Part shown: positions 6,424 through 62,881 of the stretch, piece after piece | Layout of the letters: the number at the start of each line of letters is the position of its first letter | How positions within the stretch are numbered: the stretch's first letter is position 1 | DNA from: Aeromicrobium massiliense JC14 | Lineage (GTDB): Bacteria; Actinomycetota; Actinomycetes; Propionibacteriales; Nocardioidaceae | Assembly: GCF_000312105.1 (NCBI RefSeq) | Contig: NZ_HE978636.1 | Coordinates: forward strand, 1,075,141 to 1,139,140 | Reading direction: 5' to 3' | DNA: 64,000 bases | Made by a program: the position numbers and the translations under genes | Notes under the pieces: generated by a model | The model's input: only the letters and a program-made list of their open reading frames with translations | Told to the model about the DNA's origin: nothing | Database searches by the model: none

Positions 6424-7971
6424 GTGACCCGACTGCGCCCCTACCTGCTCCCGCTCGCCGTCGTCGTGGTCGTCGGGGCGATCGTCGCGGCCCTGGTGCT
6501 CGTGCTCGAGCGCGACCGGTCCACCGCCGCGGCCCCCGAGCCCACGGGGGAGAAGGGCCCCGCCGGGCTCGAGCGGTTCTACGGCCAGCAGCCGGAGTGG
6601 ACCGACTGCGGCGACGACGACGCCCGCTGCGCCTGGATCGAGGTGCCGCTCGACTACGCCGAGCCGATCGGGAAGACCATCCGGCTGCGGGCCCGCGAGA
6701 TCCCGGCCACCGGCGACGACGTCCAGGGACACGTGGTGGTGAACCCGGGCGGCCCCGGTGGTGCGGCGCTCGACTTCGCCGGCCAGGTCGCCGCCGTGCT
6801 CGACGACGACGTGCGCGAGACGTACGGCGTCGTCGGCGTCGACCCGCGGGGTGTCGGCTCGAGCGAGCCCGCGCTGGACTGCCTGACCGACGCCGAGCTG
6901 GACGCCTGGACCCAGGTCGACTCGACCCCGGACGACGACGCCGAGGTCGAGGCACTGCGGGAGGCGTCGCTGGACTTCGGCCGCGGGTGCGTCGACCGGT
7001 CCGGCGCGCTCGCGTCGCACGTGTCGACCGTCGAGGCCGCCCGCGACCTGGACGTCGTCCGGGCCGTGCTCGGCGACGACGAGCTGACCTACTACGGCGC
7101 CTCCTACGGAACGTCGCTCGGCAGCACCTACGCCGCGCTGTTCCCGCAGAAGGCGGCCCGGCTGGTGCTCGACGGCGCGATCGCCCCCGACCTGACGCCC
7201 GCGGAGGGCGCGCTGGGGCAGAACGAGGGGTTCCAGCGGGCGCTCACCGCCTACCTGGAGGACTGCGTGGCCGACGACTGCCCGCTGGGCGACGACGTCG
7301 AGTCCGCCGAGCAGACGCTGGGCGACGCCATCGAGGAGCTCGACGCGAAGCCGCTGAAGGTCGGCGACCGCGAGCTGACGCAGACCCAGGCCTTCTACGG
7401 GGTCGCGACGCCGCTGTACGGCGAGCAGAACTGGCCGATCCTCACCGCCGCGCTCGGCCAGCTGCTCGACGGCAACGGGGCCGGGCTGCTGCAGCTGTCG
7501 GACTTCTACTTCGACCGGGGGCCCGACGGCCGCTACGCGAGCAACAGCGCCGAGTCGTTCCGGGCCATCTCCTGCCTCGACGCGACCGGGGAGCCGGCGC
7601 CGTCGCCGGACGAGGCGGAGCGCCTGGCCGACCAGCTGCGCGAGGTCTCGCCGGTCTTCGGCCCGTTCTTCGCCGGCGACTCGTCCGGCTGCGAAGGCTG
7701 GCCCGCCCGCAGCGAGGCCGCGCAGGCCGAGCTCGACGTCGCGGCGCCCGGTGCGCCGCCCATCCTGGTCGTCGGCACCACGCGCGACCCGGCCACGCCG
7801 TACGAGTGGTCGCAGCGGCTGGCCGACGCGCTCGACTCCGGCGTCCTGCTCACCCGTGAGGGCGACGGGCACACCGCGCTCGGCCAGGGCAACGAGTGCA
7901 TCGACGACGCGATCGCGACCTTCCTGCTCGACGGCGAAGCGCCGAAGGACGGGACGGTCTGCGAGGAGTAG
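6424..7971 (+). CDS. Secreted/membrane-anchored alpha/beta hydrolase, tripeptidyl aminopeptidase-like
   Basis: 515-aa protein starting at GTG 6424 with CAGGAGA just upstream. A single N-terminal hydrophobic segment (residues ~7-27, no lipobox Cys) acts as a membrane anchor or signal. The hydrolase core has an oxyanion region VVNPGGPGGAAL (~102-113) and the nucleophile elbow GASYG with Ser227. A C-terminal TAP-like domain supplies the acid in VGTTRDPATPYEW and the histidine in GDGHTALGQGNECI. Several Cys pairs in the ectodomain suggest disulfides. The family includes actinobacterial tripeptidyl aminopeptidases and the mycobacterial Hip1-type proteases; peptide cleavage is the likely but unproven activity. 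The stop abuts the convergent chorismate mutase stop without a gap. Confidence 0.88.
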   Translation: MTRLRPYLLPLAVVVVVGAIVAALVLVLERDRSTAAAPEPTGEKGPAGLERFYGQQPEWTDCGDDDARCAWIEVPLDYAEPIGKTIRLRAREIPATGDDVQGHVVVNPGGPGGAALDFAGQVAAVLDDDVRETYGVVGVDPRGVGSSEPALDCLTDAELDAWTQVDSTPDDDAEVEALREASLDFGRGCVDRSGALASHVSTVEAARDLDVVRAVLGDDELTYYGASYGTSLGSTYAALFPQKAARLVLDGAIAPDLTPAEGALGQNEGFQRALTAYLEDCVADDCPLGDDVESAEQTLGDAIEELDAKPLKVGDRELTQTQAFYGVATPLYGEQNWPILTAALGQLLDGNGAGLLQLSDFYFDRGPDGRYASNSAESFRAISCLDATGEPAPSPDEAERLADQLREVSPVFGPFFAGDSSGCEGWPARSEAAQAELDVAAPGAPPILVVGTTRDPATPYEWSQRLADALDSGVLLTREGDGHTALGQGNECIDDAIATFLLDGEAPKDGTVCEE

Positions 7972-51378: not shown

Positions 51379-52962
51379 TCAGGAGCTGGGGGTGGTGAGG
51401 ACGGTGTCGACCTGCACCAGGCGCGGGCCGTCGTGCGGGGTCGCGAGCACCGAGCGCAGCTCCTCGACGGAGCCGGCGTGCACGGCGGGGACGCCGTAGC
51501 CCTCGGCGATGCGGGTGAAGTCCAGGCCCGGGACGTCCAGGCCGGGCGCGTCCGGGACGCCGAGCAGGTCGCCGAACCAGCGCAGCGCGCCGTAGGTGCC
51601 GTTGCGCAGCAGCACGACGGTCAGCGGGACCCGGTGCTGGGCGGCGGTCCACAGCGCGGTGATGCCGTAGTTGGCCGAGCCGTCACCGATGACGCCGACG
51701 ACCGGGCGTCCGGGCTGGCCGAGGGCCACGCCGACCGACGCGGGCAGGCCGTAGCCGAGGCCCCCCGCGGCCGGGAAGTAGTACGAGCCGGGCCGGCGCA
51801 GGTCCATCTGGCGCCACCACGAGCCGGTGGTCGAGGTGGACTCCACGACGTACGACGTGTCGGCCGGCTGGGTGTCGCGCAGGGCCGCGAACACCTCCTC
51901 GGGGTGCAGGCGGCCGGCCTCGCCGGCGCGCGGCGCCGGGGGAGGCGTCGGCTCGAAGATCGTCCCGACGGGACGGTCGAACGCCTTGGCCAGCAGCTCC
52001 AGGGCGGACGCCGGGTCGGCCACCAGCGTCTCGCCGACCGGGGCGCGGGCCGCGGCGCTCGCGTCGTCGGTGACGTGCACGAGTCGGGCGCCGTCCGGGA
52101 GGTAGCGCCCGGGCTGGTGCTCGTGGTAGCGGAAGACCGGCGCGCCCACGACCAGCACGACGTCGTGCCCGGCCAGGGCGTCGGACACGGCGGAGATGCC
52201 GGCGGGCAGCACCCCGCGGAACAGCGGGTGGCGGTTCGGGAACGGCAGCCGGAACTGCGACGGTGCCGCCCACACCGGGGCGCCGAGCCGCTCGGCCACG
52301 TCGACGGCGCGGTCGAACAGGCCCTGCGTGTCGACGTCGCCGCCGAGCACGACCGCGGGGCTCGTCGCGGAGGTGAGCTGGTCGACCAGCCAGCGTCCCT
52401 GCTCGTCGTCGAGCGCCCCGGCCCGGCGGACGGCCCGGTCCAGCACGCCGGCGACCGCGTCGCCGACCGGCACGGTCCAGTCGTCGTACGGCACCGACAC
52501 GTAGGTGGGGCGGCGCTGCAGGGTGGCCTCGAACAGCGCCTGGGCCATGGCCCGGGGCACGTCCTCGGCGCAGGCCGGCTCGGTCGCGAAGCCGACGAGC
52601 GGGCGCATGAGGGCCGTGGCGTCGACGTTGGCCAGGTTCGCCTCGACGCCGATCGCCGACCGCACCTGCTGGCCGGCCATGACCACGAGCGGCGTCCGGG
52701 CAGCCACCGCGTTGGTCAGCGCACCCATGCCGTTGCCCGAACCGGACGCGGCGTGCACGTTGACCAGCACCGGACGTCCGGTGGCCTGCGCGTAGCCGTC
52801 GGCCATCGAGACGACCGCGCCCTCGTGCAGGCCCAGGACGTAGCGGAAGCCGTCGGGCAGGTCGGCCAGGAACGGCAGCTCGTTCGACCCCGGGTTGCCG
52901 AAGATCGTGGTCATCTCGTGGCGCTGCAGCAGCTGGTGGACGGTGTCGCGGACGGTCGGCAC
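51379..52962 (-). CDS. mdlC: Benzoylformate decarboxylase (ThDP-dependent)
   Basis: 527-aa thiamine-diphosphate enzyme, close in length to Pseudomonas putida MdlC (528 aa). Residues known to be catalytic in that enzyme are in register: Ser26 (FGNPGSNELPF), Glu47 (LGLHEGAVVSMADGYA), His70 (LVNVHAASG) and His280 (FRYHEHQPGRYL, equivalent to His281). The ThDP/Mg motif is GVIGDGSANYGITALWTAA. It would convert benzoylformate (or a ring-substituted analogue) to the aldehyde and CO2. No mandelate dehydrogenase or benzaldehyde dehydrogenase is adjacent. The start is GTG 52962 with GAGGAG upstream. It is divergent from a LysR regulator gene. Confidence 0.93.
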   Translation of the reverse strand: MPTVRDTVHQLLQRHEMTTIFGNPGSNELPFLADLPDGFRYVLGLHEGAVVSMADGYAQATGRPVLVNVHAASGSGNGMGALTNAVAARTPLVVMAGQQVRSAIGVEANLANVDATALMRPLVGFATEPACAEDVPRAMAQALFEATLQRRPTYVSVPYDDWTVPVGDAVAGVLDRAVRRAGALDDEQGRWLVDQLTSATSPAVVLGGDVDTQGLFDRAVDVAERLGAPVWAAPSQFRLPFPNRHPLFRGVLPAGISAVSDALAGHDVVLVVGAPVFRYHEHQPGRYLPDGARLVHVTDDASAAARAPVGETLVADPASALELLAKAFDRPVGTIFEPTPPPAPRAGEAGRLHPEEVFAALRDTQPADTSYVVESTSTTGSWWRQMDLRRPGSYYFPAAGGLGYGLPASVGVALGQPGRPVVGVIGDGSANYGITALWTAAQHRVPLTVVLLRNGTYGALRWFGDLLGVPDAPGLDVPGLDFTRIAEGYGVPAVHAGSVEELRSVLATPHDGPRLVQVDTVLTTPSS

Positions 52963-54385: not shown

Positions 54386-55093
54386 CTACGGCAGGAGGGC
54401 GCGAAGCTCGCGGGCCGCCTCGACGACGTCCGGCGCCGTGCGCCGCGCGGAGTCCTCGTCGAACAGCGACAGCCCGATCGCCGCGGACGGCGTGGTGCGC
54501 CCGCTCGGGATGCCCACCGAGACGCCGACGGTGCTGGGCACGACCTCCCCGGCGGAGATGGCGTAGCCGTCGCGGCGGGCCTGCCCGACCTCGGGCCGTT
54601 CGCCGTCGAGCACCGGCTCCGTGGCCAGGATCGCCATGGCCGCCGAGCCGCGCGGCATCTCGATCGGCTGGCCCGGCTGGAAGGCGATGTGCATCGGGGC
54701 GCGGCGCGGCTCCACCACGAGCAGCACGCGCGCCTGGGTCTCGGTCTCGCGGACGACGAGGTGGGCCGTCGCCTGCGTCGTCTCGGCCAGGCGCTCCAGC
54801 ACCGGCAGGGCGACGGTGCGCAGACCGTGCTCGACCGACTCGGCGAGCGAGACCAGGCCGGTGCTGAGGCGCACGCGCTTGTGCTCGTCGCGACGGACGA
54901 GCCGGTGCGCCTCGAGCGTGCGGAGCAGGCGGTGGGCGACCGTGCGGTGCACGCCGACGGCGTCGGCCACCTCGGTGACCGTCAGCCCCTCCGGCCGGCG
55001 CGCGAGCTCCTCGAGGATCACCAGGCCGTGGTGCAGCGTCTTCGACATCCCGGCGTCCAGCTCCACGCCGGTCAATCTAGGGAACTCGGGCAT
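54386..55093 (-). CDS. IclR-family transcriptional regulator
   Basis: 235-aa IclR regulator. The winged HTH spans ~18-75 (LVILEELARRPEGLTVTEVA, VGVHRTVAHRLLRTLEAHRL). The GAF-like effector domain includes LPVLERLAETTQATAHLVV, PGQPIEMPRGSAAMAILA and GEVVPSTVGVSVGIP. The start ATG 55093 has AGGAGGT 9 nt upstream. It is divergent from the five-gene catabolic operon beginning at 55212. The tandem dyads at 55161-55196 are its probable operators. Confidence 0.92.
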   Translation of the reverse strand: MPEFPRLTGVELDAGMSKTLHHGLVILEELARRPEGLTVTEVADAVGVHRTVAHRLLRTLEAHRLVRRDEHKRVRLSTGLVSLAESVEHGLRTVALPVLERLAETTQATAHLVVRETETQARVLLVVEPRRAPMHIAFQPGQPIEMPRGSAAMAILATEPVLDGERPEVGQARRDGYAISAGEVVPSTVGVSVGIPSGRTTPSAAIGLSLFDEDSARRTAPDVVEAARELRALLP

Positions 55094-55131
55094 CGGCCGT
55101 CACCTCCTGTGACCCGTGTCGCACCCCGCGG

Positions 55132-55160
55132 TTGACGGTGTGACGCGGCGCACGTAGTGT
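55132..55160 (+). promoter_or_regulatory. Promoter of the IclR-linked catabolic operon
   Basis: TTGACG (55132-55137) and TAGTGT (55155-55160) are separated by 17 bp, an orthodox sigma-70-type spacing. Transcription would start near 55167, inside the first operator. Confidence 0.6.
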
Positions 55161-55196
55161 GTGCGTTTGTCGCACGGTGTGTGCGATTAACGCACA
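55160..55196. promoter_or_regulatory. Twin IclR-type operators
   Basis: Two dyads with 5-bp spacers are 20 bp apart centre to centre: GTGCG-TTTGT-CGCAC (55161-55175) and TGTGCG-ATTAA-CGCACA (55180-55196). Two helical turns of spacing put both on one DNA face. They directly follow the -10, so a bound regulator would block initiation. Confidence 0.7.
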
Positions 55197-55211
55197 GAGG
55201 GAGCGTAGCGG

Positions 55212-55634
55212 ATGAGCCCGACGACCGACCCGCGGACCGCGGCCGCCGTCCACGCCCTCTACGCCCGGCAGAGCCACCTCATCGACGGCGGCGACGCCGC
55301 GGGGTGGGCCGCGACCTTCACGGCCGACGGCGTCTTCGCCTCGCCGAGCTACCCCGCCCCGGTCGAGGGCGTCGACGCGCTGGCCGCGTTCGCCGCGCGC
55401 TTCGCCGAGGCCGGACGCGCCACCGGCGACGTGCAGCGCCACGTCGTCACCAACGTCGACGTCGTCGACGCGGCGCCGGACGCCCTGACCGTGCGGGCGT
55501 ACCTGCAGATCGTCGGCACCCGCCCGGGCGAGGACGCCCGGCTCGTCCGCCTCACCACGCTGCACGACCGGCTCGTGCCCGACGGCGACGGCTGGCTCGT
55601 CGCCCGCCGCGACGTCGTCCGCGACCACGCCTGA
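55212..55634 (+). CDS. NTF2-like/SnoaL-like protein, first gene of the IclR-linked operon
   Basis: 140-aa cone-fold protein: helix VHALYARQSHLIDGGDAAGW, then FTADGVFASPSYPAPVEGVDALAAFAARFAE, then VQRHVVTNVDVVDAAPD and C-terminal strands with RLTTLHDRLVPDG. Similar folds include ketosteroid isomerase, scytalone dehydratase and small accessory subunits. In an operon with two SDRs and a flavin dehydrogenase it may isomerise or dehydrate a cyclic ketone. The catalytic residues cannot be assigned by eye. ATG 55212 has GGGAG upstream. Confidence 0.8.
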   Translation: MSPTTDPRTAAAVHALYARQSHLIDGGDAAGWAATFTADGVFASPSYPAPVEGVDALAAFAARFAEAGRATGDVQRHVVTNVDVVDAAPDALTVRAYLQIVGTRPGEDARLVRLTTLHDRLVPDGDGWLVARRDVVRDHA

Positions 55635-55695
55635 CCCCGAGACCCTGCGCCGCCACCGCCGCCGGCGCGCCACCCCGCCTGGAGGAGAGCACCCC

Positions 55696-56526
55696 ATGAC
55701 CACCGTCGACGAGAACCCCGGCCGCACCAACACCGCCACGATCCGCGCCATCTACCCCGAGATGCCCGGCAAGGTCGCCGTCGTGACCGGCGCCGCCCGC
55801 GGCATGGGCGCGCAGTTCGCCAAGGGCCTGGCGGCCCGCGGCGTGCACGTGGTCGGCGGCGACGTCGACGACGTGGCGATGAAGGCCACCGCCGAGCGGA
55901 TCAACGCCGAGCTCGCTACCGACGCGCTGGTCGACCAGCCCGGCCGCGTGACCGGCGCCCGGGTCGACGTGACGGTCGCGACCGACCACGAGGCGCTCGC
56001 CCAGGTCGCGCTCGCCGAGCACGGCCGGCTGGACTACTGGATCAACAACGCCGGCATCTTCCCCTTCGCGCTGGCCGAGGAGATCAGCCCCGAGCAGATC
56101 TCGGCGACGCTCGACGTCAACGTCGAGGGCGTCCTGTTCGGTGCCCAGGCGGCGGCCCGGCACCTGGGCGAGGGCGGCGCGATCGTCAACATGTCGTCGG
56201 TCTCCGCGCTGCGGGTGCGTCGCGGCCGCGGCGCGTACTGCGCGTCCAAGGCCGCCGTGCACCACCTCACCGAGTCGCTGGCGTTCGAGCTGGGCGACAA
56301 GGGCATCCGGGTCAACCAGATCGCGCCGGGCTTCATCGACACCGAGATGACGCAGTGGATCAAGGGCGACCCCGAGGCCCTGGCCAAGGCGCTCGACAAC
56401 GTCCCGCTGCACCGCTTCGGGGCCCCCGAGGAGGTGCTCGGCGCGATGCTGTTCCTGCTCTCGGACGCCGCGCGCTACGTCACCGGCAACTCGATCTCCG
56501 TCGACGGCGGCTCGCGCCATGTCTGA
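55696..56526 (+). CDS. Short-chain dehydrogenase/reductase 1
   Basis: 276-aa classical SDR with a roughly 20-residue N-terminal extension before the fold. The cofactor motif is [20 protein letters not shown] (TGxxxGxG), the structural NNAG is in [13 protein letters not shown], and the catalytic tetrad uses Ser in [10 protein letters not shown] and YCASK (Tyr/Lys). The acidic residue after strand 2 (GGDVDDVA) favours NAD+. The C-terminus ends ...[13 protein letters not shown]. Strong GGAGGA lies 9 nt before ATG 55696. It overlaps the next SDR by 8 nt, so the pair is translated together. Confidence 0.92.
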
Positions 56527-57295
56527 GTCCTACCCGGACGTCGTCCTGGTCACCGGCGCCGCGGCCGGCATGGGCGCCAACCACGCCCGTGCGCTCGCGG
56601 CGGCCGGCAGCCACGTCGCCGTCGCCGACGTGGCGGACGCCTCCGACGTCGTCGGTGCGATCGCCGCGGCCGGCGGGAGCGCCTCGGCCCACGAGCTCGA
56701 CGTCACCGACGCTGCGGCCTGGGCCCGCGTGGTCGACGAGGTCCGCGGCGAGCACGGCGAGATCGGCGGGCTGGTCAACAACGCCGGCATCTCGCGCCGG
56801 CTGGCCTTCCTCGACACCCCGGACGACGTCTGGGAGCTGACCATGCGCATCAACCTGTTCGGCCCGTTCTACGGCATGAAGGCCGTGGCGCCGTCCATGC
56901 GCGCGAACGGCGGCGGCTCGATCGTGAACATCTCGTCGATCTCGGGCCAGATCGGCTACTTCTCGCCGGCGTACTCGTCGAGCAAGTGGGGCCTGACCGG
57001 GTTGTCGAAAGCCGCGGCCGGCAACTTCGCCGAGTGGGGCGTCCGGGTCAACTCCGTGCACCCCGGTCTCGTGGGCACCGCCCTGCTGGAGGGCTCGGAC
57101 GGCTTCGTCCGGTCGGCGGTCGACTCGATCCCCCTGGGCCGGATGGCCACGGTCGACGAGGTCACCGACGCCGTGCTGTTCCTGCTGTCGGACCGGTCCA
57201 CCTACATGACGGGCAGCGAGGTCACCGTCGACGGCGGCCTGGTCTCCAACGGCCTGTACCACCGCATCGTCCAGGAGTCGGGAGGAAGCCTGTGA
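56519..57295 (+). CDS. Short-chain dehydrogenase/reductase 2
   Basis: 258-aa classical SDR. Motifs are [28 protein letters not shown] (Asp after strand 2, NAD+ preference), [32 protein letters not shown] (catalytic Ser, Tyr, Lys) and a C-terminal [13 protein letters not shown]. It is only moderately similar to SDR 1, so the two probably act on different hydroxyl or keto positions of one substrate. The start overlaps SDR 1 by 8 nt and the stop overlaps the flavoprotein gene by 4 nt. Confidence 0.92.
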
Positions 57296-58737
57296 GCACC
57301 GAGGAGGACGTCGTCGACGTCGTCGTGGTCGGAGGAGGCGGGGCCGGGCTGGCCGCCGCCGTCTCGGCCGCCGAGCAGGGCGCGAGCGTGCTGCTGCTCG
57401 AGTCGCAGAAGGAGCTGGGCGGCTCCACGCAGCTGTCCGCCGGCCTGTTCACCGCCGCCGGCACGTCCGTGCAGCGCGGCCTGGGCGTCGAGGACTCGGC
57501 CGAGAAGTTCTTCCAGCACTACATGGACCTCAACCAGTGGCTGCTGGAGCCGGGCCTGGTCAAGGCGTTCTGCGACAACGCCGGGCCGACGCTGGAGTGG
57601 CTGCTCGAGCTCGGCGTCGAGATCCCCGCGGTCGTCTCGGCCAGCGCCCACGAGCCCGGCCTGTGCCGGGCCGGCGTCGAGGACGTCTGGCGCGGCCACG
57701 TGCCGAAGGACCAGGGCTACGGGCTCGTGCAGACGCTCGACGCCGCCCGCAAGAAGCACGGCGTCGAGGCGGTGCTGAACGCGCGGGTGCAGCGCCTGCT
57801 CGTCGAGGACGGCGAGGTGCGCGGCGTCGTGGTGGACGACATCGAGGTGCGCGCGCACGCGGTCGTCGTCGCCTCCGGCGGCTTCGCGCAGAACCCCGCG
57901 CTGCTCGAGCAGCTCTACCCGACGGTGCTCGAGGCCGGCGACGACCTGTTCGTCGTCGCCGCCGAGGGCTCGCAGGGCGACCACCTCGCGTTCGGCGAGC
58001 AGGTCGACGCGGCCGTCGTCGGGCACGACTGGGGCCTGCTCATGCCCACCGTCTACTTCCAGCGCCTGCACCACTGGCAGTCCGGCTTCCCGCCGCGCTC
58101 GCGCGTCCACGTGAACCCGCAGGGCCGCCGTTTCATGGACGAGGACGCCTCGTACGCGGTGTCCGGCGGACTCATCGACCTGCAGGGCGGGCCGTGCCAC
58201 GTCGTCTTCGACGAGAAGGCCCGGCTGAGCCTGCCGGCCGGCTACGCGCACTGGGACGCCGAGCACGTGCTCGCCGAGGCCGAGGCCGGACGCACGCTGC
58301 GGGCGGACTCGCTCGAGGAGCTCGCCGGGCTCATGGGCGTCCCGGCCGACGCGCTCGTCGCGACGGTCGAGCGCTGGAACACGCAGCTTCCGCAGGGGGA
58401 GGACCCCGACTTCCTGCGGCACGTCTCGCTGGCCGCCAAGGGCGTCAGCGAGCCCCCTGCCCCCATCGCGGACGGGCCGTTCTACGCGGCCCGCATCCGT
58501 CCTGCCGAGCTGGTGTGCACCCACGCCGGCCTGCAGATCGATGGCTCGGCCGCCGTGGTCGACCGGGTCGGTGACACCGTCCCCGGTCTGTTCGCGGCGG
58601 GAGAGGCGGGCGCCGGAGTGCTCGGCGCCCGGTACGTCGGCGGCGGCAACGCCGTCGCCAACGCCCTGACCATGGGCCGCATCGCCGGTCTCGGAGCGGC
58701 CCGTGCGGCCGTCGCCAGGACCACCACCACCGTGTGA
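57292..58737 (+). CDS. FAD-dependent oxidoreductase, fumarate reductase/ketosteroid-dehydrogenase type
   Basis: 481-aa FAD_binding_2 flavoprotein. The Rossmann motif is [20 protein letters not shown], followed by [18 protein letters not shown]. The second FAD segment is [12 protein letters not shown], and the C-terminal FAD loop is [20 protein letters not shown] with [16 protein letters not shown]. The family includes fumarate/urocanate reductases and 3-ketosteroid dehydrogenases that form or reduce a C=C bond next to a carbonyl. With two SDRs it may desaturate a cyclic ketone. No signal peptide or heme domain. GTG 57292 overlaps SDR 2 in a GTGA. Confidence 0.88.
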
Positions 58738-58802
58738 ACGGTGGACGCGGGACGATCTTGTCCAGAGCCCGGCCCGCGCCCACCCCCGACTAGGAGACTC
58801 TC

Positions 58803-60143
58803 ATGGGAGCACCTGACCGCGACACCGTGTCGCAGGCCGAAGGCCAGGCGATCGTGCGCAAGATCTCTGTGCGCATCATCCCGATCGTCATGCTGCTGTA
58901 CATCTTCAACTACATGGATCGCACCAACATCAGCTACGCGCAGCTGACGATGGGCGAGGAGCTCGGCATCACGACGGCCGCGTTCGGCCTGGCGTCGTCG
59001 ATCTTCTTCCTGGCGTACGTGGTCTTCGAGGTCCCCTCGAACATGGCGCTCAAGAAGTTCGGCGCCCGCGTCTGGCTGGCGCGCATCGCCATCTCGTGGG
59101 GGCTCGTGACGATCCTCATGGGCTTCGTGCAGAGCCTCAACCAGCTGTACGGCGTGCGCATCCTGCTCGGCATCGCCGAGGCCGGCCTCTACCCGGGCCT
59201 GTTGCTGTACCTGACGCTCTGGTTCCGCCAGGCCGACCGCGGCCGCGCGATCGCGATGATGGCGATGGCGCAACCGATCGCGATGATCGTCGGCTCGTTC
59301 ACCGGCGGCCTGATCCTGGACCACGTCTCGTGGTTCGACCTGAGCGGCTGGCGCTGGGTGTTCATCCTGCAGGGCGCGCCCACGGTGCTGCTCGGCATCG
59401 CGGTGCTGTTCCTGCTGCCCTCGCTGCCCAAGGACGCGAAGTGGCTCAGCAAGCGCGAGGCGGACTGGGTCGACAGCTCGATCAAGGCCGAGTACGACGA
59501 GCCCGAGGACGCCGACGGGTGGCGCGAGCTGCTCAAGGCGGTCAAGAACCCGCGCGTGCTGCACCTGGCCGTCGCGAACTTCTTCGCCGCGTGCGGACTG
59601 TACGGCTACACGTTCTTCGTGCCGCAGATCATCAAGCAGATGAACCCGGACTACTCGTCTACCAACATCGGCTTCCTGGGCGCGCTGCCGTTCATCGTCG
59701 GCGCGATCGGCATGTTCCTCATCGCCCGGCACAGCGACCGCACCGGGGAGCGCCGGTTCCACACGATGGGCGCGCTGTCGCTCGCCGCGGTCGGCCTGCT
59801 CGGCACGATCCTGACCGTCGACACCGCGCAGGTGGCGCTGATCTTCCTGTCGATGACCGCGATCGGCGTGCTGGGCTACCTGGCGCCGTACTGGGCGCTG
59901 GCCAGCCAGGTGCTGACCCGGGCCGAGACGGCCGTCGGCCTGGCCGCGATCAACACGATCGCCGCGCTGGGCGGGTTCGCCGCGCCGTACGTCATCGGCA
60001 AGAACGCCACGGCCGACGACGTGACGATCGGGCTGTACTTCCCGATCGCCTGCCTGGTGGTCTCGGTCGTCATGCTCGGCCTGGTGAAGGTCCGCGAGGG
60101 CGAGCAGAAGCGCACCCCGCGCGTCAGCGAGCCGGTCGCGTGA
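58803..60143 (+). CDS. MFS transporter, anion:cation symporter (phthalate permease-like)
   Basis: 446-aa, 12-helix transporter of the ACS family. The helix 1 region IPIVMLLYIFNYMDRTNISYA and the following SSIFFLAYVVFEVPSNMALKKFGARVW are diagnostic. RILLGIAEAGLYPGLLLYLTLWF is also typical of phthalate, tartrate or hydroxyphenylacetate permeases. It probably imports the anionic substrate of the IclR-linked enzymes. It starts 65 bp after the flavoprotein gene and ends at a hairpin (60150-60180). Confidence 0.9.
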   Translation: MGAPDRDTVSQAEGQAIVRKISVRIIPIVMLLYIFNYMDRTNISYAQLTMGEELGITTAAFGLASSIFFLAYVVFEVPSNMALKKFGARVWLARIAISWGLVTILMGFVQSLNQLYGVRILLGIAEAGLYPGLLLYLTLWFRQADRGRAIAMMAMAQPIAMIVGSFTGGLILDHVSWFDLSGWRWVFILQGAPTVLLGIAVLFLLPSLPKDAKWLSKREADWVDSSIKAEYDEPEDADGWRELLKAVKNPRVLHLAVANFFAACGLYGYTFFVPQIIKQMNPDYSSTNIGFLGALPFIVGAIGMFLIARHSDRTGERRFHTMGALSLAAVGLLGTILTVDTAQVALIFLSMTAIGVLGYLAPYWALASQVLTRAETAVGLAAINTIAALGGFAAPYVIGKNATADDVTIGLYFPIACLVVSVVMLGLVKVREGEQKRTPRVSEPVA

Positions 60144-60211: not shown

Positions 60212-60736
60212 ATGTCCGCCACCGAGGACCTCGACTACTGGTCCTTCGTCGAGCTGGCCTCGCGCCGGCTGAGCGCGCGGGTCGGCGACCACGACGCGGC
60301 GGCCACCCGGGTGCTGCTGAGCCTGAACCGGGCGTCCGACGTGGTCACGTACGACCTGGAGGCGGCCATCCACCGTCCGCGTGGACGCTCGTGGTCGGCC
60401 TACCGGCTGGTGTTCGTCGTCTGGCTGGCCGGGCCGATCGAGCCCAAGACCGCGGCCCTGCTGACCGGCATGAGCCGGGCGGCGGTGTCGAACCTGGCCA
60501 AGCCGCTGGTCGACGACGGGGTGCTGCTGCGCACGCCCGACCCCGAGGACGGCCGCTCGGTCCGGCTCGAGCTGTCCGACGCCGGCCGGGAGGCCATCGA
60601 GGAGACGTTCCGCGCCCAGAACGAGCGCGAGGCGGCTTGGGTGGACGTCCTCACCCCCGACGAGCAGGAGACGCTCGTCGGCCTGCTGAACAAGCTGGTC
60701 ACCGCGCGCGACTTCGGCGTGCGGGACCGCCGCTAG
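60212..60736 (+). CDS. MarR-family transcriptional regulator of the homogentisate genes
   Basis: 174-aa winged-helix regulator. The recognition region is LLTGMSRAAVSNLAKPLVDD, followed by the wing RTPDPEDGRSVRLELSDAGR, typical of MarR. The C-terminal helix forms the dimer interface. It is directly upstream of hmgA on the same strand, with a 79-bp gap that carries an AT-rich promoter and a partial dyad, and is the likely regulator of hmgA-fahA. Inducer unknown; homogentisate or a precursor is plausible. The longer reading frame upstream is only a shadow of the transporter gene. Confidence 0.9.
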   Translation: MSATEDLDYWSFVELASRRLSARVGDHDAAATRVLLSLNRASDVVTYDLEAAIHRPRGRSWSAYRLVFVVWLAGPIEPKTAALLTGMSRAAVSNLAKPLVDDGVLLRTPDPEDGRSVRLELSDAGREAIEETFRAQNEREAAWVDVLTPDEQETLVGLLNKLVTARDFGVRDRR

Positions 60737-60815: not shown

Positions 60816-62006
60816 ATGGCGCACTACCGCTCGCTCGGCCACGTCCCGCCGAAGCGTCACACCCAGCACCGCGACCCCGAGGGCAACCTCTACTACGAGG
60901 AGCTCATGGGCGAGGAGGGCTTCTCCTCCGACAGCGCGCTGCTCTACCACCGCCACATCCCGTCGGCGATCGTCGAGTCGACCGAGTGGGTGCTGCCCGA
61001 CCAGACGCTCACCCCGAACCATCCGCTGCGCCCGGTGCACCTGCGCCTGCACGACCTGTTCCCGGAGGACTCGTGGGACGGGACCGACGTCGTCACCGGC
61101 CGCCGCCTCGTGCTGGGCAACGCCGACGTGCGCATCCACTACGCCGTCGCCCGCAAGGCGTCCCCGCTGTACAAGAACGCGTACGGCGACGAGATGGTCT
61201 ACGTCGAGTCCGGCACCGCCCGGGTCGAGACCGTGTTCGGCGCGCTCGAGGTCGAGTCCGGCGACTACGTGATGATCCCGATGTCGACGGTGTCGCGCTG
61301 GATCCCGACCGGCGACGAGCCGCTGCGCGCGTACGTCATCGAGTCGTTCAGCCACATCGAGCCGCCCAAGCGCTTCCGCTCGCGCTTCGGCCAGCTGCTC
61401 GAGAACGCGCCGTACTGCGAGCGCGACATCCACGGCCCCACCGAGACGCTGCTCGTCGACGAGACCGACGTCGAGGTGCTGGTGAAGCACCGCACCAGCC
61501 GGGGCGTCGTCGGCACCCGCTTCGTCGTGCCGCACCACCCGTTCGACGTCGTCGGCTGGGACGGCTGCCTGTACCCGTGGAAGTTCTCGGTGCACGACTA
61601 CGAGCCGCTCACCGGGCGCATCCACCAGCCGCCGCCGGCGCACCAGGCCTTCGAGGGGCACAACTTCGTCATCTGCAACTTCGTGCCGCGCAAGGTCGAC
61701 TACCACCCGCTCGCGGTGCCGGTGCCGTACTACCACTCCAACGTCGACTCCGACGAGGTGATGTTCTACTGCGGCGGCGACTACGAGGCGCGCAAGGGCT
61801 CGGGCATCGGGCAGGGCTCGATCTCGCTGCACCCCGGCGGCCACGCCCACGGCCCGCAGCCCGGTGCCATGGAGGCGAGCCTGGGCGCGGAGTTCTTCGA
61901 CGAGCTCGCCGTCATGGTCGACACCTTCCGTCCGCTGGAGCTGGGGGAGGGAGCGCTCGCCACCGACGACGGCACGTACTACCAGTCGTGGGCGCGCAAC
62001 CGATGA
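60816..62006 (+). CDS. hmgA: Homogentisate 1,2-dioxygenase
   Basis: 396-aa Fe(II) dioxygenase that opens the ring of homogentisate to maleylacetoacetate in tyrosine and phenylacetate catabolism. The active-site region is VPYYHSNVDSDEVMFY (His307, Glu314) and LHPGGHAHGPQPGA (His343/His345). The upstream DVVGWDGCLYPWKFSVHDYE is also conserved in HGD proteins. At 396 aa it is shorter than the ~430-440-aa proteobacterial and human forms and has a distinct N-terminus (MAHYRSLGHVPPKRHTQHRD). ATG 60816 is preceded by GAGGAGG. The stop overlaps the next gene by 4 nt. Confidence 0.93.
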   Translation: MAHYRSLGHVPPKRHTQHRDPEGNLYYEELMGEEGFSSDSALLYHRHIPSAIVESTEWVLPDQTLTPNHPLRPVHLRLHDLFPEDSWDGTDVVTGRRLVLGNADVRIHYAVARKASPLYKNAYGDEMVYVESGTARVETVFGALEVESGDYVMIPMSTVSRWIPTGDEPLRAYVIESFSHIEPPKRFRSRFGQLLENAPYCERDIHGPTETLLVDETDVEVLVKHRTSRGVVGTRFVVPHHPFDVVGWDGCLYPWKFSVHDYEPLTGRIHQPPPAHQAFEGHNFVICNFVPRKVDYHPLAVPVPYYHSNVDSDEVMFYCGGDYEARKGSGIGQGSISLHPGGHAHGPQPGAMEASLGAEFFDELAVMVDTFRPLELGEGALATDDGTYYQSWARNR

Positions 62007-62881
62007 GCCTGTCGCCGCTGGTCTCGGGCCTGTACGACGACGCGTCGCTCTTCCCGCCGGGGAACGCGCCACTGCCCGAGGCCCTGGCCGCGCACGCCGT
62101 GCACGAGCGCGCGCCGCACGCGGACCTGGTCGGCACGTTCGTCCTGCCCGCCGCGCGCGTGGGCGAGCTGGCCGCCGAGCTGGCCGAGCGGCCGTTCCCG
62201 GGCGACCTGGTGCTCAGCCTGACCGTGCCGGACGTCGCACTGGCCGACGAGACGGTCGCCCGGGCCACCGCGCTGCCGGCGGTCTCGGTGGCCGCGGTCG
62301 AGGTGGTGGTGCCGCCGGGCCAGGACGTCGTCACCCTGCTCGCCGGGCTGGACGCGCTCGCGTCCCGCCGCCCGGGCCTGGACGTCTACGTCGAGGTGCC
62401 GCGCGACGAGCGTCGTCCGGCCGTCGTGGACGCCCTGGCCGGCACCCGGTACCGCGCGAAGCTGCGCACCGGCGGCGTCGTCGCGGACGCCCATCCCGAC
62501 GAGCGCGAGCTGGCGTCCGTCATCGACCTGCTGGTGCGCCGCGGCGTCCCGTTCAAGGCCACCGCGGGCCTGCACCACGCGGTGCGCCGCACCGACCCCG
62601 ACACCGGCTTCGAGCAGCACGGGTTCCTCAACGTGCTCGCGACCGTGGCCGCCGCGCAAGCCGGCGCCGACGTCTTCACGCTGACCGGCCTGCTGGCCGA
62701 GCGTGACGGCCGGGTGCTGGTCGAGCGGCTGACCGCGCTCGACGCCGAGGCGGCCGCCCGCCTGCGCGACGGCTTCCGCTCGCTCGGGTCGTGCAGCGTG
62801 GCCGAGCCGCTCGACGACCTGCTCGCGCTCGGCCTCGTGCCCGACTCGATCCCCCCGATCCCCGAAGGACGGCTCGCATGA
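62003..62881 (+). CDS. Protein of unknown function between hmgA and fahA
   Basis: 292-aa cytoplasmic protein that I do not recognise. It has no signal peptide, membrane segment or obvious nucleotide-binding loop. Alternating short strands and helices (e.g. PGDLVLSLTVPD, AVSVAAVEVVVPPGQ, GLDVYVEVPRDE, YRAKLRTGGVVAD, GVPFKATAGLHHAVRR, GFLNVLATVAAAQAGADV) suggest a TIM-barrel-like fold. Candidate functional residues are the KLRTGG lysine/arginine, KATAGLHH and a later QHG. It overlaps hmgA and fahA by 4 nt each (ATGA on both sides), so it is translated together with the pathway. It occupies the place expected for maleylacetoacetate isomerase; a role in that step is inference only. Confidence 0.75.
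   Translation: MSLSPLVSGLYDDASLFPPGNAPLPEALAAHAVHERAPHADLVGTFVLPAARVGELAAELAERPFPGDLVLSLTVPDVALADETVARATALPAVSVAAVEVVVPPGQDVVTLLAGLDALASRRPGLDVYVEVPRDERRPAVVDALAGTRYRAKLRTGGVVADAHPDERELASVIDLLVRRGVPFKATAGLHHAVRRTDPDTGFEQHGFLNVLATVAAAQAGADVFTLTGLLAERDGRVLVERLTALDAEAAARLRDGFRSLGSCSVAEPLDDLLALGLVPDSIPPIPEGRLA

Follow-up and report, generated by a model that had tools for sequence, protein, structure and literature searches.

An IclR-associated SnoaL-SDR-SDR-flavoprotein operon of Aeromicrobium massiliense JC14, conserved among actinobacteria and possibly leading to homogentisate

The operon described here lies in a window of 64,000 nucleotides (contig NZ_HE978636.1, positions 1,075,141 to 1,139,140) of the 3.3 Mb genome of Aeromicrobium massiliense JC14; coordinates refer to this window unless another locus is named. 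It comprises a divergently oriented gene for an IclR-family regulator (54386-55093, minus strand; PF09339, 50.2 bits) and, on the plus strand, genes for a SnoaL_4 (NTF2-like) protein (55212-55634; PF13577, 70.6 bits, gathering score 24), two short-chain dehydrogenases (SDRs), a FAD_binding_2 flavoprotein and a major facilitator superfamily (MFS) transporter of the ACS type (58803-60143; PF07690 met, best models TIGR00893 and HpaX). SDR1 (55696-56526; PF13561, 209.8 bits) is a classical short-chain dehydrogenase, and the best NCBIfam model for SDR2 (56519-57295) is ChcB1 (209.6 bits, cut-off 400). The flavoprotein (57292-58737) is predicted from its Pfam match and from residues equivalent to those of KstD to be a KstD-type desaturase; its start codon is GTG, and its first 4 bp are shared with the end of SDR2 and overlap the SDR2 stop. 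The spacings are 118 bp between IclR and SnoaL, 61 bp between SnoaL and SDR1, -8 bp between SDR1 and SDR2, -4 bp between SDR2 and the flavoprotein, and 65 bp between the flavoprotein and the MFS gene. A first-pass annotation, made from the letters of the window, had placed six genes at these positions, and every one of its family labels is backed by Pfam. A scan for sigma-70 promoters gave no match. The flavoprotein shares 97% identity with its counterpart in Aeromicrobium sp. IC_218. Here we present the conservation of this operon, its predicted regulation and enzymes, and its possible role as a peripheral route to homogentisate.

Related loci were gathered by scanning genome contigs with the flavoprotein; 107 were confirmed and the best 80 kept, so that the flavoprotein is present in 80/80 by construction. 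Neighbours were counted by position from tblastn matches of the window proteins (the first residue of the flavoprotein query being set to M), some of the loci belonging to close relatives. IclR was found near the flavoprotein in 78 of the 80 loci, SnoaL in 78, SDR1 in 79 and SDR2 in 78; L023 and L084 are cut, or nearly so, by contig ends. The spacing between SDR1 and SDR2 falls between -30 and 60 bp in 57 of the 76 cases measured, and that between SDR2 and the flavoprotein likewise in 62 of 78. SDR2 is less than 60% identical in 16 loci and is not placed there between SDR1 and the flavoprotein. By title the hosts belong to Aeromicrobium, Rhodococcus, Prescottella, Amycolatopsis, Nocardia, Prauserella, Pseudonocardia, Streptomyces, Nocardiopsis, Nocardioides and other genera. 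The gene-neighbourhood search that had been proposed for the SnoaL-SDR-SDR-FAD-MFS order has therefore found this set in loci of many actinobacterial genera; since it recurs so widely, the arrangement is beyond chance, and the operon is a genuine, widespread actinobacterial module. The earlier view of a single co-regulated catabolic module is supported. The distribution of the operon is patchy, as with a catabolic trait that was acquired: a flavoprotein match at E <= 1e-60 occurs in six of 149 sampled genomes of the same family (one at 42% identity), and one at E <= 1e-100 in 11 of 393 genomes of a class sample.

A divergent relative, L177 (flavoprotein 58% identical), shows the order MHS carrier-SDR2-SnoaL-SDR1-flavoprotein, followed by a second SnoaL_4-like gene at about 6560-7046. 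Such a second gene also stands near the operon in 19/80 loci (for example L011, 10854-11342, plus strand) and was not found in the 64 kb window. A flavoprotein of 45% identity (L178) was rejected as an orthologue, neither SnoaL nor IclR adjoining it.

The gap between IclR and SnoaL holds a predicted operator region (55160-55196) that was recognised by its conservation and consists of two adjacent palindromes TGTGCG-N5-CGCACG/A at 55160-55176 and 55180-55196. The facing halves of the two palindromes form the conserved site TTGTCGCACGGTGTGTGCGATTA at 55167-55189, and across loci the same position carries TAATCGCAC-N5-GTGCGATTA. In the window the palindrome has two matches against 0.62 expected; because 13 of 100 shuffled versions of the window also reach two, the case for an operator rests on conservation. 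When up to one mismatch is allowed, seven places in the A. massiliense genome carry the palindrome, the operon accounting for two of the seven, and two places carry its reversed control, a result that is not decisive by itself. The sequence TCGCA-N7-TGCGA is exact in 58 of the 78 intergenic regions adjoining IclR, and with a matrix derived from these 58 seed sites every one of the 78 reaches 21 bits or more, a count that is partly circular in that the matrix stems from the very regions scored.

Less affected by this circularity are two further sets of sites. SnoaL is separated from SDR1 in eight Rhodococcus or Rhodococcoides loci (L044, L046, L048, L049, L030, L031, L033 and L039), and in all eight the relocated gene has a second site of its own, 38-62 bp before the SnoaL match, with scores of 13.4-26.3 bits, mostly weaker. 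A SnoaL gene relocated with its own operator copy amounts to a natural test of the regulon. The sole other site of at least 13 bits in the 80 loci (13.4 bits, L080) stands by a second IclR gene. In a genome-wide scan of 21 genomes, which were chosen by us, several of them for having a site that conforms to the strict motif, this motif has a single match in 19 and two matches in one (G545); by a check of the sequences, the operon's own site is among the matches in all 20, and the reversed motif gave no match in the 21. The A. massiliense genome misses the strict motif by one base. The extra site in Rhodococcoides fascians A44A (G545) was dismissed as a second member of the regulon: being located within a reading frame (L176, 4858-5322) whose product we take for IspF, it is probably due to chance. 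IclR is predicted from these patterns to be the dedicated regulator of a local regulon that includes SnoaL.

In a MAFFT alignment with six KstD-like proteins of the Rhodococcus jostii genome, numbered according to 4c3x, residues Y287, Y447 and G451 of the flavoprotein (counted from codon 57295) align with Tyr318, Tyr487 and Gly491 of KstD; the respective codons are found at 58153-58155, 58633-58635 and 58645-58647. All three are invariant in the 31 sequences of an alignment (A1) of the window protein with 30 of the 79 extracted orthologues. Arg402 is catalytic in fumarate reductase; in the HMMER alignment to 1d4c its position is taken by Tyr. Scores with the family models remain below the cut-offs for KstD itself (NF005882, 168.7 bits, cut-off 788), for flavocytochrome c (TIGR01813, 221 bits, cut-off 285.45) and for TcuA (NF006130, 190.8 bits, cut-off 369). 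Structure prediction against KstD and the urocanate and fumarate reductases, as had been proposed, did not separate the folds, and the key residues are nearer to KstD. These residues suggest the desaturation of a cyclic ketone.

The SnoaL protein is invariant at Tyr17, Asp25, Arg76, His77 and Arg113 in 29 aligned sequences (alignment A2: the window protein and 28 of 76 orthologues from a hand-picked list, from which L056 and L064 were dropped for their odd length). Related dehydratases and isomerases use Tyr, Asp and His residues of this kind for catalysis. The AlphaFold model has a pLDDT of 94.8, and its nearest solved structures by Foldseek are Aln2, Rv3472, ActVI-ORFA and Caci_6494. Aln2 and ActVI-ORFA, which belong to polyketide biosynthesis, resemble the model with TM values by query of 0.79-0.84 and profile E values of 4.5e-12 and 1.3e-14, but their identity to SnoaL is 25-28%. 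The protein is a predicted isomerase or dehydratase. For the two SDRs the earlier assignment holds, and the catalytic motifs are complete: TGxxxG(M/L)G, NAG/NVG and YxxxK, the motif set of classical SDRs, are present in 76 of 77 extracted SDR1 orthologues and in 77 of 77 of SDR2 (orthologues of at least 230 amino acids). Both SDR1 and SDR2 have an Asp after the second strand, which in SDRs usually indicates NAD; an NAD-type Asp in both would fit oxidation.

The ACS-type carrier scores best with TIGR00893 (298.1 bits, cut-off 395 missed), followed by HpaX (277 bits, also below cut-off). A carrier of this type is found in 34 of the 80 loci and an MHS-type carrier in 45, with both in one locus and neither in two. 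Models matched by the MHS-type carrier are TIGR00883 (372.5 bits), the shikimate transporter (259.3 bits) and TcuC (250.9 bits), all below their cut-offs. The enzyme set stays together while the carrier is exchanged between two sub-families, and the transporter named at first pass is supported as an organic-acid type in both forms.

Downstream of the transporter and outside the operon lie genes of homogentisate catabolism. The first encodes a MarR-family regulator of the homogentisate cluster (60212-60736, plus strand), so designated from weak MarR-type model matches and from a position as that of hmgR in Rhodococcus ruber. It is followed by a divergent, associated homogentisate 1,2-dioxygenase (60816-62006, plus strand) with matches to PF20510 (HgmA_N, 37.5 bits, cut-off 20.2) and PF04209 (HgmA_C, 29 bits, cut-off 21); against the equivalog TIGR01015 it reaches 63.1 bits and misses the cut-off of 510.75. 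It is the only HgmA_C match of its genome. Beyond the next gene there follows, as read in the sister locus L009, a fumarylacetoacetase that exceeds its cut-off. The dioxygenase represents a divergent sub-family with close relatives in 158 of the 393 genomes of the class sample, which automatic annotation may miss.

The gene between dioxygenase and fumarylacetoacetase encodes a protein termed F7 (62003-62881, plus strand), which has homologues in 45/80 loci and many invariant residues. No Pfam or NCBIfam match was found for it, nor a PDB profile match at E <= 1. F7 occupies the position expected of a maleylacetoacetate isomerase. Actinobacteria are without glutathione, and it is conceivable that F7 is a new isomerase.

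The dioxygenase lies inside 47 of the 80 loci and within about 20 kb in 55. Among 79 loci parsed it stands downstream in 31, upstream in seven, downstream with F7 inverted in seven, and downstream with no F7 seen in one. The remaining 33 genomes all possess it (33/33); it abuts the locus in six of them and is about 12 and 19 kb away in two, where the contigs compared have equal length. In the class sample it is present in all 11 genomes with the flavoprotein (hypergeometric P 3.6e-5, relatedness ignored), and in 10 of 10 when the 45%-identical non-orthologue G194 is left out (P 9.3e-5, relatedness again ignored). The proposal that the homogentisate genes provide an outlet for the operon gains from their being conserved neighbours. 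The benzoylformate gene, put forward as a second outlet, does not share this position: it stands beside the operon in 1/80 loci only, the near-identical Aeromicrobium L009. Its product in the window is a benzoylformate decarboxylase (51379-52962, minus strand; 703.7 bits, above the equivalog cut-off of 493). A 4-hydroxyphenylpyruvate dioxygenase is encoded elsewhere in the A. massiliense genome. R. ruber Chol-4 is described as growing on homogentisate and not on tyrosine (PMC6498646), so bacteria of this kind may obtain homogentisate from something other than tyrosine.

From the gene families, their conservation, the operator, the active-site residues and the co-occurrence and linkage with homogentisate genes, we infer a direction of reaction, a substrate and homogentisate as the exact product. 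The operon would be a peripheral route that turns an alicyclic acid into homogentisate or into the compound directly preceding it, a reading to which we give a probability of about 0.5. A narrower version of it is tentative and clearly less probable: direct, oxygenase-free aromatisation of a cyclohexyl- or cyclohexenyl-acetic acid diol to homogentisate. Besides the two SDRs, this version would involve a KstD-type desaturase representing a new sub-family and SnoaL as aromatase, all controlled by an IclR regulator that has essentially a single operator in each genome. In the proposed route the transporter would import the alicyclic carboxylate, the two SDRs would convert two alcohol groups of the ring to ketones, and the flavoprotein would add one C=C bond next to a carbonyl of the ring. 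The SnoaL_4 protein would enolise the product or remove water to give the aromatic ring. Three dehydrogenations and one tautomerisation lead from a 1,4-dihydroxycyclohexane to a hydroquinone, a set of steps that two SDRs, a desaturase and SnoaL would match exactly. The simplest balancing substrate would be 2,5-dihydroxycyclohexylacetate, oxidised in two SDR steps to 2,5-dioxocyclohexylacetate, desaturated by the flavoprotein to the cyclohexenedione and tautomerised by SnoaL to homogentisate; a substrate whose ring bears an additional hydroxyl, removed through dehydration by SnoaL, is equally possible. Homogentisate would then be cleaved by the neighbouring dioxygenase and processed by fumarylacetoacetase, and IclR would sense the substrate or an intermediate at its dedicated operator. 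The quinate-like or terpenoid acid formerly suggested as substrate is named by no result, and the homogentisate linkage counts against a route of the quinate-to-protocatechuate type.

Several observations weigh against the homogentisate route. None of the results identifies the side chain of the substrate. Linkage of the dioxygenase within about 20 kb was not seen in 25/80 loci, some of whose contigs end early; co-occurrence could reflect general aromatic catabolism because the dioxygenase also serves tyrosine; and an operator copy of at least 13 bits was not found before the dioxygenase in the 80 loci. The equivalent of KstD Tyr119 is missing, as in the alignment it falls in a segment that the flavoprotein lacks; the structure model of the flavoprotein is weak at the active site, and its list of structures by Z is headed by urocanate and fumarate reductases. 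One locus, L052, is without SDR2. At L177 the IclR gene is 44% identical and several kilobases off, and the exact operator was not found there.

The points on linkage and regulation would also be expected if a cyclic acid were oxidised or aromatised by the operon and its product entered some other pathway, the adjacency to homogentisate genes being a catabolic-island effect. The dioxygenase cluster has a MarR gene of its own and no operator copy, so that operon and cluster are not one regulon, and the dioxygenase is common (158 of the 393 genomes of the class sample). We nevertheless hold this explanation to be unlikely, as no other ring-cleavage dioxygenase was found among the Pfam-tested open reading frame families present in at least 4/80 loci (suspected antisense families left out), and the homogentisate dioxygenase is linked in several arrangements and present in every flavoprotein-bearing genome checked. 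The census of these families undercounts genes, the DNA being GC-rich and some antisense frames having been chosen; families 14, 24 and 25 look like shadows.

The structure list, together with flavocytochrome c and TcuA among the best general matches and the resemblance of the alternative carrier to TcuC and the shikimate carrier, would be accounted for if the substrate of the flavoprotein were a small acyclic acid resembling tricarballylate or urocanate, and that of the operon as a whole an acyclic polyhydroxy acid. With Tyr in place of the catalytic Arg of fumarate reductase, the KstD-type Tyr/Gly pair conserved and the TcuA cut-off missed, this appears improbable, more so than entry into another pathway.

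Of slightly lower probability again is a scheme in which the operon yields 2-hydroxyphenylacetate, or some other monohydroxyphenylacetate, and a hydroxylase, for instance CYP116B, turns this into homogentisate. A P450-reductase fusion of the CYP116B type, so labelled from its P450 and 2Fe-2S architecture and an 86% match in the Rhodococcus globerulus genome, is found near the operon in 7/80 loci on either strand (for example L012, 13710-16076, minus strand; L065, 10966-13290, plus strand), and FAD_binding_3 hydroxylase-like genes, possibly peripheral hydroxylases, stand in the loci of two further groups of four each (L030, 11533-13185, and L011, 315-2231, both plus strand). CYP116B enzymes convert 2-hydroxyphenylacetate to homogentisate; the source of this substrate in R. 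globerulus is described as unclear (PMC11889516). An operon making 2-hydroxyphenylacetate should therefore need a CYP116B-like enzyme, but such a P450 occurs in only 16 of 50 genomes tested (that of A. massiliense and 49 of the 80), in 15 at 70% identity or more and in one at 51%; none was found in A. massiliense at E <= 1e-100. As an obligatory partner it was rejected, 34 of the 50 genomes, A. massiliense included, having none that reaches 50% identity; since most tested genomes are without it, operon and CYP116B look like parallel routes to homogentisate. A P450 adjoining the operon in R. globerulus itself was considered and set aside, the contig being of different length. The loci with both may be a native context for these enzymes of biotechnology.

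Least probable is the degradation or detoxification of a terpenoid or steroid-like ring compound, which the KstD-type residues, a 3-alpha,20-beta-hydroxysteroid dehydrogenase as best solved relative of SDR2 and a weak KSI match of SnoaL (E 0.02) would suit, and which leaves the homogentisate link unexplained in a genome that has no protein above the KstD family cut-off and a flavoprotein without the Tyr119 segment.

The known system closest in logic to the proposed route to homogentisate is the Chc pathway for the aromatisation of cyclohexanecarboxylate, in which the SDRs ChcB1 and ChcB2 and the KstD-like desaturases ChcC1 and ChcC2 convert an alicyclic to an aromatic acid. The operon shares the combination of SDR and KstD-like FAD desaturase, with ChcB1 as the best model for SDR2, but misses all three cut-offs tested (ChcB1 as given above; for the flavoprotein, ChcC2 158.7 of 900 bits and ChcC1 138.3 of 1000), has one flavoprotein instead of two, includes SnoaL, and has homogentisate dioxygenase as its companion. 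KstD itself is resembled in the Tyr318, Tyr487 and Gly491 equivalents and differs in the Tyr119 segment and the model score. Like the CYP116B/OhpA route, with which it shares a neighbourhood in seven loci, the operon would be a peripheral path to homogentisate, whereas that route employs a monooxygenase on an aromatic ring. The genes downstream of the operon match the hmg cluster of R. ruber Chol-4 (MarR hmgR, hmgA, hmgB), the available excerpt of whose description makes no mention of an IclR-SnoaL-SDR-SDR-FAD unit. Searches of open-licence papers yielded no description of the operon.

The operon is conserved with its own operator in many soil actinobacteria, common Rhodococcus species included. 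If the proposed role is true, it would provide an oxygenase-free entry into a central aromatic pathway and point to an overlooked natural soil substrate, an abundant and unrecognised alicyclic precursor of homogentisate. Its flavoprotein would then represent a new class of small ring desaturases, and its IclR protein with a single operator could serve as a biosensor.

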